Shown here: positions 1,727-12,046 of the stretch, in pieces | Layout of the letters: each line of letters opens with the position of its first letter | Numbering within the stretch: position 1 is the stretch's first letter | Assembly: GCA_020062065.1 (NCBI GenBank) | Contig: JAGUWZ010000124.1 | Location: 1-12,046 of the forward strand | Direction: 5' to 3' | Length of the DNA stretch: 12,046 nucleotides | Source of the DNA: Candidatus Omnitrophota bacterium | Lineage (GTDB): Bacteria; Omnitrophota; Gorgyraeia; Gygaellales; Profunditerraquicolaceae | Translations under genes and position numbers: made by a program | Notes under the pieces: generated by a model | What the model saw: only the letters and a program-made list of their open reading frames with translations | The model's database searches: none | What the model was told of the DNA's origin: nothing

Positions 1727-1756
1727 AGAATTGTAAAACTAATAGCAAACTTTCTG

Positions 1757-1848
1757 AACGCAGATTCACGCGGATCTAACGCAGATAAACGCAGATATTC
1801 CGACGATAATCTGCGAGAATCTGCGTTTGATTTGCGAATATCTGCGTT
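1757..1848. repeat. Phased palindromic repeat, copy 2 (between mraZ and rsmH)
   Basis: A 92-bp imperfect palindrome. Left-arm units start at 1759, 1769, 1780 and 1790 (CGCAGAT or CGCGGAT), and right-arm units at 1809, 1819, 1830 and 1840 (ATCTGCG or ATTTGCG). Spacing is 10-11-10 in both arms, and the centre distance is 19. The transcript would fold into a long hairpin between mraZ and rsmH. The AAC-GCA-GAT frame has no stop and is in phase with rsmH. Confidence 0.93.
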
Positions 1849-1885
1849 AATAAAAACTTCTCATTATTTTTTGCAAAGATCAATA

Positions 1886-5017: not shown

Positions 5018-6536
5018 ATCATTAAATAAATTTAAAATTTACTCTGACGCAGCTGATACTTCAATGCCGTCTGAAGGGTGGAGTAAGAAAACGCCACTGG
5101 GTATCAATGCCAAGCAGAGTCGAACCATTGATTTTGAGGTCAAGGGCATTAGCTGTGATTCCAAACAGGTATCTGGCGACTTTATCTTCATCGCTATAAA
5201 AGGTGTAAATGCAGATGGGAATAATTTTATCCAGGAGGCGATAGAAAAAGGAGCAAAAGCAGTTATTAAGTCCCCAGATGACCACGTCCCCGCCTCACCC
5301 AAAAATATTGTTTTTATTGAAGTGGCTGATGAGAGAATAGCTTTAGCGAGATTAGCAGCGGAATTTTACGGTAACCCTTCTTCAAAAATGAGAGTTGTAG
5401 GTATTACCGGAACCAATGGTAAGACCACGACTGCGTATTTAATAGAAAGGGTTTTAAAAGAGGGGAATTTTATTCCGGCAGTTATTGGGACGATTAATTA
5501 CCGTTTCAAAGATAAGCTCATTCCCTCCAAAAATACAACTCCCGGCCCAATAGAACTTCAGTCTATGTTGGCTGATATGCTTAAAAAAGGGGTAAATTAC
5601 TCGATTATAGAGGTATCCTCGCATGGCTTAGACCAGAATAGAACCGACCAAATCAATTTCTCGTCTGCCATCTTTACCAATCTCACCCAGGACCATCTGG
5701 ATTACCATAAGACTCAAGAGAAATATTTTCAGGCCAAAGCAAAGTTGTTTAAAAATTTAGGAGACACCGCTTTTGCTGTTATAAACAATGATGATGCATA
5801 TGCAAGAAGACTTAAATCCCTAAGCCGCGGGAGGCTAATTTCTTACGGCATAGAGAATAAGGCGGATATAACAGCCAAAGACATAAAACTGGATTTAGCG
5901 CATACTGAATTTAATTTGGCAGCTGGGGATTTCAAAACCAATCTGGATATAAAACTTATTGGACGCCATAACGTATATAATGTCTTGGCTTGCTTTGCCT
6001 GGGCTGTGGGTGAGGGTTTGGATTTGGAGACCGTTAAGCTGGCCCTAGAAAAATTCAATTCGGTGCCTGGGAGGCTGGAGAAGATAAATTCAAATGCAGG
6101 TTTTTCTGTTTTTGTGGATTATGCGCATACTGAAGATGCGCTAAAAAATGTTATATCAGCTTTAAGGCAGATATCCAAAAATAGAATTATCGTGGTTTTC
6201 GGATGCGGGGGGAATCGTGATAAAACCAAAAGACCCAAGATGGGCAGTGTGGTTTCAAAACTGGCGGATTACGCCATTATCACAAATGATAATCCGCGTT
6301 GCGAAGCGCCTGAAGAAATAATCGAGGATATTAAAAAAGGCATTGAAGGCGATAACTACTGTGTGATCCTCGAGCGTTTTGAAGCGATAAAAAAATCTTT
6401 GTCTCTTGCCAAATCCGGCGATATTGTTCTTTTGGCCGGTAAAGGTCATGAGAATTATCAGATATTTAAGGACAAGATAATGCATTTTGACGATTGCGAG
6501 GTGGCCAGGCAGTGTTTGAAATCCATGAATTATTAG
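4995..6536 (+). CDS. murE: UDP-MurNAc-tripeptide synthetase MurE (meso-DAP-adding)
   Basis: ATP-dependent cytoplasmic ligase that adds the third residue to UDP-MurNAc-L-Ala-D-Glu. It has 513 residues. Motifs are the substrate-domain GISCDSKQV (51-59), P-loop GITGTNGKTTT (136-146), TTPG (181-184), TNLTQDHLDYH (228-238), the lysine expected to be carbamylated (K248 in YFQAK), YAHTEDAL (376-383), GCGGNRDKTKRP (403-414) and GKGHENYQ (482-489). NDNPR (431-435) is the signature for meso-diaminopimelate rather than lysine. The ATG at 4995 follows GGAGAGG (4976-4982) by 12 nt, and ATG 5004 is an alternative. The start overlaps ftsI by 23 bases and the end overlaps murF by 25. Residues about 17-45 look like an extra segment compared with typical MurE N-termini. 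Confidence 0.97.
   Translation: MRLMQLIKSLNKFKIYSDAADTSMPSEGWSKKTPLGINAKQSRTIDFEVKGISCDSKQVSGDFIFIAIKGVNADGNNFIQEAIEKGAKAVIKSPDDHVPASPKNIVFIEVADERIALARLAAEFYGNPSSKMRVVGITGTNGKTTTAYLIERVLKEGNFIPAVIGTINYRFKDKLIPSKNTTPGPIELQSMLADMLKKGVNYSIIEVSSHGLDQNRTDQINFSSAIFTNLTQDHLDYHKTQEKYFQAKAKLFKNLGDTAFAVINNDDAYARRLKSLSRGRLISYGIENKADITAKDIKLDLAHTEFNLAAGDFKTNLDIKLIGRHNVYNVLACFAWAVGEGLDLETVKLALEKFNSVPGRLEKINSNAGFSVFVDYAHTEDALKNVISALRQISKNRIIVVFGCGGNRDKTKRPKMGSVVSKLADYAIITNDNPRCEAPEEIIEDIKKGIEGDNYCVILERFEAIKKSLSLAKSGDIVLLAGKGHENYQIFKDKIMHFDDCEVARQCLKSMNY
6498..6504 (+). promoter_or_regulatory. Ribosome binding site deciding the murF GTG start
   Basis: GAGGTGG ends 7 nt before GTG 6512, an ideal SD distance, inside the end of murE. 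It favours GTG 6512 over the in-frame TTG at 6494, which has no SD and would add six residues unlike the MurF N-terminus. Confidence 0.7.
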
Positions 6537-8005
6537 AAGCTACACACGGGAAATTAGTCGTATCTGGGAAGAAAAACCGGGTTATGGGAATTTCTCTGGA
6601 TTCTCGTACGATAAGACCGGATGAGGCATTTATCGCTATAAAAGGAGATAATTTTGACGGACACGACTTTATCCATACGGCGATTAAAAAAAAAGCAGCG
6701 TGTATAATTAAAGAACGAGGGAAGACAAGATTTGGATCAGAAGAAAAAAATAAAACCTCTTTAAACGCAGATTTCCGCAAATCTAACGCAGATATACGCA
6801 GATTTATCCTTCGAGATAATCTGCGACCATCTGCGTGTAATCTGCAAGAATCCGCGTTAAAAAATGCTTTTTCAGAGGTAGCTATTATAGATGTCCAAGA
6901 TACCACAAAGGCATTGGGAGATATTGCAAATTTCCACCGCAAGAAATTCGATATACCGCTTATTGCCATTACCGGAAGCACTGGCAAAACTACAACCAAG
7001 GAGATGCTGGCCTGGATATTATCTTTTAAATTTAAGGTACTTAAAAACGAAGGCACAAAAAATAATCACATTGGTTTACCACAGACATTGCTGGGGTTGC
7101 GAAGAGATTATGATATCGCAATAGTGGAATTAGGGACAAATCATTTTGGTGAGATTGAAACCCTGGCGGAGATTTGCCAGCCAAATATAGGAATAATCAC
7201 CAATATCGGGCCGTCCCATCTTGAGTATTTTGGCGATTTGAAAGGCGTATTCCATGAGAAATATTCGCTGGTAAAAAATCTAAAACAACCTTCTATTGCT
7301 ATATTAAATGCGGATGACAGATTTCTAAGAATGCGCCTTAAGGCAAAAGAGCGCCCATTGTTTATGTTGGGGTTTGGTATCAAAAATCATTGCGAATTCC
7401 CAGCCTCGGCTATTAAAGATGCTTCTGGAGGACTGGAATTTTGTGTAAAAAAACATAAATTTATTTTAAAAACCCTGGGATTTTATAATATCTATAATGC
7501 CTTGGCTGCCATTGCCTGCGGATATACCTTCGGTATGAAATACAAAGATATGGCTGGAAGGCTTGGCAATTTTGAATTCCCCGAAGGTAGACTTAAGCTC
7601 AGAGAGTTGAAACAAAAGAGGTTTATTGATGATACCTATAATTCTAACCCCGCATCTCTTAAACAGGCATTGAATGTATTAGAAAATTTCAAAACCAGGG
7701 GTAAGAAGATTTTTGTTATGGGGGATATGCTGGAGTTGGGCGAGAATTCAGGAGTATTTCATTACCAGGCAGGAAAACTTGCTGCGAGGTCTTGTGATAA
7801 ATTTATCGCTGTAGGAAAACTATCCAGATTAGCGATAGAGGGGGCAAAGAAATCAGCTTTTGAAGAGAAAAATATGTTTTCATGTGACACCGCCTGGGAA
7901 GCCAGGGAAATCTTGTTCAAAGATATAGCGCCGGATAAAGATGATATTATATTAGTCAAAGGTTCCCGGGCAATGAAAATGGAGGAGATATTTAATATTC
8001 CTTGA
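6512..8005 (+). CDS. murF: UDP-MurNAc-tripeptide:D-Ala-D-Ala ligase MurF with a repeat-encoded insert
   Basis: ATP-dependent ligase adding D-Ala-D-Ala to complete the UDP-MurNAc-pentapeptide. From GTG 6512 it has 497 residues, about 40-50 more than usual. Motifs are GISLDSRTI (26-34), P-loop TGSTGKTTT (154-162), VELGTNHFGEI (205-215), HLEYFGDL (236-243), DDTYNSNPAS (373-382), MGDMLELG (403-410) and GSRAMKMEE (484-492). The surplus lies in the N-terminal UMP-binding domain: residues about 84-117 are encoded by palindromic repeat copy 3 (6761-6860), placed between CIIKER (64-69) and AIIDVQDTTKAL (124-135), which are close together in ordinary MurF. The frame stays open through the repeat and all catalytic motifs follow in frame, so the gene looks functional. 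It overlaps murE by 25 bases. Confidence 0.96.
   Translation: MFEIHELLEATHGKLVVSGKKNRVMGISLDSRTIRPDEAFIAIKGDNFDGHDFIHTAIKKKAACIIKERGKTRFGSEEKNKTSLNADFRKSNADIRRFILRDNLRPSACNLQESALKNAFSEVAIIDVQDTTKALGDIANFHRKKFDIPLIAITGSTGKTTTKEMLAWILSFKFKVLKNEGTKNNHIGLPQTLLGLRRDYDIAIVELGTNHFGEIETLAEICQPNIGIITNIGPSHLEYFGDLKGVFHEKYSLVKNLKQPSIAILNADDRFLRMRLKAKERPLFMLGFGIKNHCEFPASAIKDASGGLEFCVKKHKFILKTLGFYNIYNALAAIACGYTFGMKYKDMAGRLGNFEFPEGRLKLRELKQKRFIDDTYNSNPASLKQALNVLENFKTRGKKIFVMGDMLELGENSGVFHYQAGKLAARSCDKFIAVGKLSRLAIEGAKKSAFEEKNMFSCDTAWEAREILFKDIAPDKDDIILVKGSRAMKMEEIFNIP
6761..6860. repeat. Phased palindromic repeat, copy 3 (inside murF, in frame)
   Basis: The core palindrome is 6764-6858 (95 bp). Left units start at 6766, 6776, 6787 and 6797, and right units at 6819, 6829, 6840 and 6850, again spaced 10-11-10. 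The centre distance is 22, exactly 3 bp longer than copy 2. TTAT(C) 6804-6808 and GATAA 6815-6819 close the central loop. Translated in the murF frame it reads as heptads: N-A-D-F-R-K-S, N-A-D-I-R-R-F, then N-L-R-P-S-A-C and N-L-Q-E-S-A-L. Confidence 0.93.
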
Positions 8006-9247: not shown

Positions 9248-9326
9248 TTAAAAATGCAAAATGAAAAATTAAAAATTAAGAAGTATATATCGTTGAAAAA
9301 ATAGATAAATAATTTTGCATTTTTAA
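9248..9326. repeat. AT-rich inverted repeat between mraY and murD
   Basis: TTAAAAATGCAAAAT (9248-9262) is the exact reverse complement of ATTTTGCATTTTTAA (9312-9326), a 15-bp stem separated by 49 bp. Adjacent runs of AAAAATT and AATTTTTAA (to about 9340) extend the partial symmetry. It fills most of the 117-bp gap before murD. It may be a small non-coding repeat or leader hairpin. No terminator T-run after a GC-rich stem is present. Confidence 0.6.
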
Positions 9327-9349
9327 TTTTAAATTTTTAATTGATTGAA

Positions 9350-11803: not shown

Positions 11804-11832
11804 TTGACCCCTCTTTTTTAGTATAATATAAT
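11804..11832 (+). promoter_or_regulatory. Predicted promoter reading into repeat copy 4
   Basis: TTGACC (11804-11809), a 17-bp spacer and TATAAT (11827-11832). A second TATAAT at 11822-11827 has only a 12-bp spacer. Transcription would start near 11839, inside the repeat flank, and run rightward through the palindrome. No gene follows before the window ends. Confidence 0.5.
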
Positions 11833-11833
11833 A

Positions 11834-11948
11834 TAGCCAATTTAAGAACTACCTTTTAAACGCAGATACACGCAGATTACACGCGGATATTCGCAGATTT
11901 AAAGATTTATCTGCGAGAATCTGCGTTGGATTTGCGAAAATCTGCGTT
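11834..11948. repeat. Phased palindromic repeat, copy 4, with the conserved 24-bp flank
   Basis: The core is 11859-11948 (90 bp). Left units start at 11861, 11871, 11882 and 11892, and right units at 11909, 11919, 11930 and 11940, spaced 10-11-10. The centre distance is 17. Its flank, 11834-11857, is the exact reverse complement of 71-94. Over the shared part the whole element is nearly identical to copy 1 inverted, with only a few substitutions (for example 36 and 57). Confidence 0.93.
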
Positions 11949-12046
11949 AAAATTGGGTTGAAATTATCATTTTACTAGTTATTAAATCAGCTTATATAAT
12001 AAATATTCCTATATCTCATATTTTCCCTTACTTTTAATTTAATAGC

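Follow-up and report, generated by a model that had tools for sequence, protein, structure and literature searches.

The locus examined here raises the question of how a palindrome belonging to a dispersed, largely intergenic repeat family came to be read as protein within murF. The window, that is, the whole stretch of 12,046 nucleotides that was analysed, lies on contig C23; the draft genome to which it belongs has 162 contigs, a total length of 835,654 bases and a completeness of 71%. It is occupied by a cell-wall and division gene cluster that includes murF, with genes covering about nine tenths of it (summed from ORFs). The murF ORF is open from TTG 6494 (503 codons) and contains no stop or frameshift. 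Its product carries the Mur_ligase, Mur_ligase_M and Mur_ligase_C domains of Pfam, all above cut-off, and in structure comparison the best matches of the predicted protein were solved MurF structures. Its protein relatives are mostly labelled Candidatus Omnitrophota. Elsewhere in the window, the interval from mraY to murD holds an inverted repeat rich in A+T (9253-9342).

Within murF, a covariance model matched a palindromic core almost exactly where the preliminary description had placed it (6761..6860), and in frame. The segment 6750-6870 folds with -38.6 kcal/mol, versus -17.3 ± 3.2 kcal/mol for 200 shuffles (z -6.75), none of which was as good. Both blastn and the covariance model link this segment to intergenic copies, so it does belong to a repeat family, as had been proposed from reading the sequence. 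The core encodes about 34 residues, the number originally given, and the total surplus of the protein at this point is about 44 residues, within the 40-50 first estimated: the loop has 61 residues versus a commonest length of 17 in our MurF set, and the protein has 497 residues versus 452 in its closest relative, P0002 (76% identical). The difference between core and surplus indicates that the insert reaches some 15-20 nt beyond the core at either end. All later motifs were said to be intact and in frame, and the continuous ORF with its three Mur domains bears this out. The features are collected in Table 1.

Table 1. Coordinates in the window of murF and of the repeat copies
Feature	Position	Strand	Basis and remarks
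murF	6512..8005	+	497 codons from GTG 6512; ORF, three Mur ligase Pfam domains, fold match
In-frame core palindrome within murF (dispersed repeat family)	6762..6860	-	Covariance model, 87.1 bits (this copy is itself one of the 35 that built the model); blastn; fold
Probable whole insert with candidate flank duplication	6737..6878	+	Sequence inspection; agrees with a surplus of about 44-45 residues
Intergenic copy upstream of rsmH, type-B flanks	1755..1850	+	Model match
Type-A element after ftsW, core 11857-11950, inverted ends	11835..11991	+	Model match, flank analysis
Partial type-A copy at the contig start	1..94	-	96% inverted match to 11834-11927; model match 1-47

The murF segment gave at least 70 blastn matches in its own genome, on both strands (40 of 89 candidates scored). 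The covariance model, built from 35 aligned copies, gave at least 133 matches with E up to 0.001, which by count are at least 69 distinct places (150 of 983 candidates scored). Four CGCAGAT-type units lie in each arm, eight per palindrome, in a phase of 10-11-10 nt. In the 35 copies, the start-to-start spacings of the units were 10 (127 times), 11 (58 times), 21 (5 times) and 22 (5 times, with a mutated unit). The word pair ACGCAGATN{1,6}CGCAGAT occurs 180 times in the genome, and its reversed control does not occur at all. Most copies are of type A, measuring about 160 bp and bounded by inverted ends; another flank arrangement (type B) and mixed copies were also found. Identity with a known RNA family was ruled out, as Rfam gave no match in the window at gathering thresholds. 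This contig has a copy of the repeat at or close to each end (1-94 and 11834-11927) and several other contigs also start with it, indicating that the repeat limits assembly.

The family is mobile, as shown by target duplications of its type-A copies. The outer flanks of 29 such copies, in which both ends were recognised, share words averaging 7.76 nt (range 4 to 11), versus 4.25 ± 0.22 nt for re-paired flanks; none of 1000 re-pairings reached 7.76. Movement of the type-A copies thus duplicated some 7-9 bp of the target. They carry terminal inverted repeats, with AGCCAATTTAAGAAC at one end (58 places, up to 1 mismatch) and an imperfect inverse at the other, so that two features of MITEs, terminal inverted repeats and target-site duplication, are present. 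The copy in murF, like its sister of the same subtype at C63:7695-7782, is without type-A ends. The murF copy is flanked by TCAGAAG (6737-6743) and TCAGAGG (6872-6878), 135 nt apart with one mismatch, a weak candidate pair that is given without a chance estimate and is only suggestive of a target duplication of that copy. We infer that the murF copy itself arrived by transposition.

Among the proteins compared, the insert is peculiar to this one. Among 22 aligned proteins, it was present only in the window's protein and in that protein's own database entry, and among 200 non-redundant MurFs only in this one. In assembling the MurF set, 15 of 110 loci were dropped for lack of a usable frame; 215 sequences were kept, and 200 after removal of those 95% alike. 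The alignment of relatives that had been proposed as a check therefore shows the insert to be absent from them; for the nearest relatives, P0002-P0004, this was seen at the protein level. In a database comparison with residues 78-135, limited to shared 5-residue words, the one match among 10 candidates was the protein of the window itself. A lineage-specific MurF domain with no relation to the repeat was ruled out, because the segment recovers the repeat family in an ordinary blastn comparison. A contig break at MurF in genome G003 was likewise ruled out, two overlapping contigs there being without the insert.

We then considered where the extra residues lie in the protein. In an AF2 model made with 22 sequences (mean pLDDT 79.6), residues 81-122 in the numbering of the 503-codon ORF have pLDDT below 50 and are flanked by the confident strands 70-74 and 130-134 of the N-terminal domain. 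In the three alignments shown, solved MurFs match the sequence to either side of the inserted segment and leave the segment itself unaligned. The preliminary description had supposed a surface loop and asked for a structural model. The model supports a loop, disordered and set between confident strands; that it projects from the surface is suggested by its low pLDDT and position. TSLNADFR and DNLRPSACNLQESALK are tryptic peptides of the predicted insert.

Taken together, we consider it very probable that a small, non-autonomous MITE-like palindrome, present in about 70 copies, inserted into a loop that separates two strands of MurF's N-terminal domain, and that read-through of it adds about 44 mostly disordered residues. 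On this account, the copies would have arisen by amplification in this Omnitrophota genome, and the stop-poor 7-nt units of the element leave about 40% of its frames open without prior adaptation. The copy in murF would have entered an open frame, its total length being a multiple of three, at a loop tolerant of extra residues, and would have been kept. The insert peptide is presumably made and MurF with the insert presumably works, and the insert is probably near neutral.

Three other explanations were weighed against this one. The insert might have been taken into use, either as an mRNA hairpin that tunes expression of the mur cluster or as a loop that functions in MurF, and be kept by selection. 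The murF copy differs from the family consensus by 20% (median of copies 7%), yet its hairpin is the fifth most stable per nucleotide among the 35 copies, and a half copy is also found in murC-murB, a further pair of mur genes in this genome. Divergence combined with stability is, however, common to the divergent subtype to which the murF copy belongs (its sister L002, at C63:7695-7782 of the same genome, differs by 23%), so that no selection in murF is needed. Moreover, the insert is disordered in the model and absent from the 199 other MurFs, and we regard such use as improbable.

An artefact of assembly or binning, in which a repeat-driven misjoin put the copy into murF, has the assembly-breaking behaviour of the repeat in its favour, with several contigs starting with it and both ends of this contig carrying copies. 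We nevertheless consider it very improbable, since the murF frame, the reading phase and both flanks continue exactly, and the copy is of a distinct subtype rather than the common one; the database cluster of this protein, with 2 member sequences on 2 contigs, also speaks mildly against it. Hardly any likelihood attaches to murF being a decaying pseudogene with the palindrome as one of its lesions. At 71% completeness the genome might hold another murF, but the 503 codons run without a stop or frameshift, the three Mur domains are kept, and this is the only strong MurF match in the genome, the other matches listed being weaker and other Mur ligases.

Read-through of the inserted palindrome, the reading that we prefer, is in keeping with the coding properties of the family. 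In 32 cores, a mean of 2.6 of 6 frames were open, versus 1.36 after shuffling (highest shuffle mean 1.84), and three open frames were found in 25 of 52 full-length copies of the genome. Given such stop-poor cores, an insertion in the right phase is readable without prior adaptation. Among 72 motif clusters taken from pieces of the genome, some of them halves of one copy and with gene-end overlaps left out, only two lie in frame in a recognised gene with 25 or more codons to either side, one in murF and the other in murC-murB. So few in recognised genes, in spite of the high gene coverage of the window, is expected if most insertions into genes are lost. Open frames through copies at L024 of the same genome (31 + 40 residues) and at L234, L238, L249 and L198 of relatives look antisense or chance by eye and were not counted.

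In the second case, murC and murB form one frame of 795 codons with MurC and MurB domains (L250:335-2716, minus strand; C146:834-3215 of the genome), and a half copy of three units lies at their junction (C146:1739-1767). It is absent from the model matches and was recognised by its units and flank; it encodes RLRPSACNPRESAFNRLFE, which resembles LRPSACNLQESALKNAFSE of murF. The murC and murB genes of relatives are in different, overlapping frames in five of the eight inspected by script, the other three having no motif match, and among the MurC matches listed from other genomes none has an open frame longer than 486 residues. This junction suggests that adjacent genes can be joined by elements of the kind.

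We also found a full copy in frame in valS of a relative, G032 (L188:1501-1589; C49:5243-5331). Thermus thermophilus ValRS (1gax) aligns up to residue 473 before the copy and from residue 474 after it. Further upstream, this valS runs in a different frame, so that the gene is broken in the assembly, which makes it a weaker case. It is the only one of 33 copies in relatives to lie in the frame of a recognised gene (33 of 35 loci looked at; L189 and L197 left out). Upstream in the same valS, a second repeat-like peptide (CLPAGR) adjoins the frame change.

Elements of this kind are known from other bacteria. Rickettsia palindromic elements (RPE) and their likes in Wolbachia, of about 105-146 bp, occur both between genes and in frame in conserved genes according to PMC2229807, in a table of which their target duplication carries a question mark. 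The comparison with Rickettsia drawn at the outset is sustained: here too, a palindrome of the same family as intergenic copies is tolerated as extra residues in a conserved gene, being absent from relatives, with the frame intact and the insert disordered. As far as the two can be compared by description, the present family differs from RPE in its phylum (its relatives are mostly Candidatus Omnitrophota), its eight phased units and its visible target duplications. With these findings, protein-coding palindromes are known from an uncultured phylum that has no relation to Rickettsia, and the visible target duplications make transposition of such inserts into genes a testable question.

MITEs such as Correia/NEMIS, ERIC and RUP, which PMC2229807 describes as 100-200 bp long with inverted ends, target duplications and a stable hairpin, and some of which have open frames fused to genes, resemble the present family in size, ends, duplications, hairpin and coding fusions; they differ in that ours has an eight-unit phased internal array, with a unit sequence that varies by genus and a constant architecture. 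The GTAG/CGTC REPs, according to PMC3733652, lie mostly between genes, with some in genes of several species coding for 20-30 residues; in one instance, two Xanthomonas carry them at roughly the same position of recB. They share with our family a mainly intergenic location with few copies in coding sequence, whereas our core is about 95 nt long versus 20-40 bp, has no tag ends, and has a Y1 gene without nearby units. None of the 35 aligned cores has a GTAG or CGTC end; they start with T(A/G/T)AACGC or nearly so. A RAYT/REP system was ruled out, as the 3,342-base locus around the single Y1_Tnp gene of this genome contains no repeat unit. That gene (L209, C140:3841-4182) is flanked by GCTTTAGCTA-like inverted words. 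Carriage by phage or plasmid was ruled out likewise, the strict four-unit pattern having no occurrence in viral_contigs and bases 11831-12000 no match to plasmids. One open-access library yielded no literature on this repeat or on palindromes of Omnitrophota. The kind of element is known from Rickettsia RPEs and intragenic REPs, and the family, its architecture and the recurrent loop appear to be new.

The family extends beyond this genome. The covariance model matched in 14 of 57 other genomes of related groups. Of 383 further genomes in the phylum, 12 contain a strict three-unit pattern; the highest count is 15, in G062, which lies outside the class, and G353 and G395 show only an evenly spaced 10-10 form. 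In some genomes of other genera, the units are CACGGAT, CACAGAT or CACGAAT, with the 10-11-10 phase kept (alignment A3, loci L186-L195 and L230-L249). Agreement among the units within an element is 0.60, versus 0.27 by chance, with 0.33 the highest of 1000 shuffles. In 25 elements of several genera, 12 of 27 predicted pairs had compensatory changes on both sides; these elements were picked among matches to the structure model, a selection that leans towards structure. An eight-unit phased design that changes in concert between genera hints at a binding partner of the palindrome.

The same MurF loop carries other inserts elsewhere in the phylum. At least 10 extra residues were present at this loop in 12 of the 200 MurFs, the window's included. 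The loop insert of L118 is a strong palindrome (dG -73.7 for 144 nt) dispersed in its own genome with 76 matches, of which four places including itself are at least 70 nt long and most others 25-60 nt. Similarly, the loop insert of L109 is a strong palindrome (dG -68.3 for 156 nt) with 43 matches in its own genome, many longer than 70 nt; both energies stand without a shuffle comparison. The L109 repeat also occurs in the genome of L118 (37 matches), and the L118 repeat has no match in the genome of L109. The murF of L109 has two in-frame copies of its palindrome (L109:6209-6338 and 6797-6904). The loop insert of L050 is single-copy in its genome, which counts against a general rule. P0008, P0114, P0046 and P0047 are also among the loop-extended MurFs, at the protein level.

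From the three proven cases (the window's MurF, L118 and L109), we judge the chances evenly balanced that this loop is a recurrent permissive site across the phylum, at which different mobile palindromes independently became coding, and that stop-poor phased units are ready-made material for protein insertions and, as in murC-murB, even for gene fusion. Repeated use of one MurF loop would provide natural replicates of essential enzymes absorbing 30-50 new residues. A second variable site of MurF lies at about residues 305-318, where nine of the 200 proteins have extra residues (P0054, P0021, P0078, P0113, P0047, L071, L085, L087 and L137); at the protein level, some of the peptides there look repeat-derived (NPVRNNNSKSKISNG).
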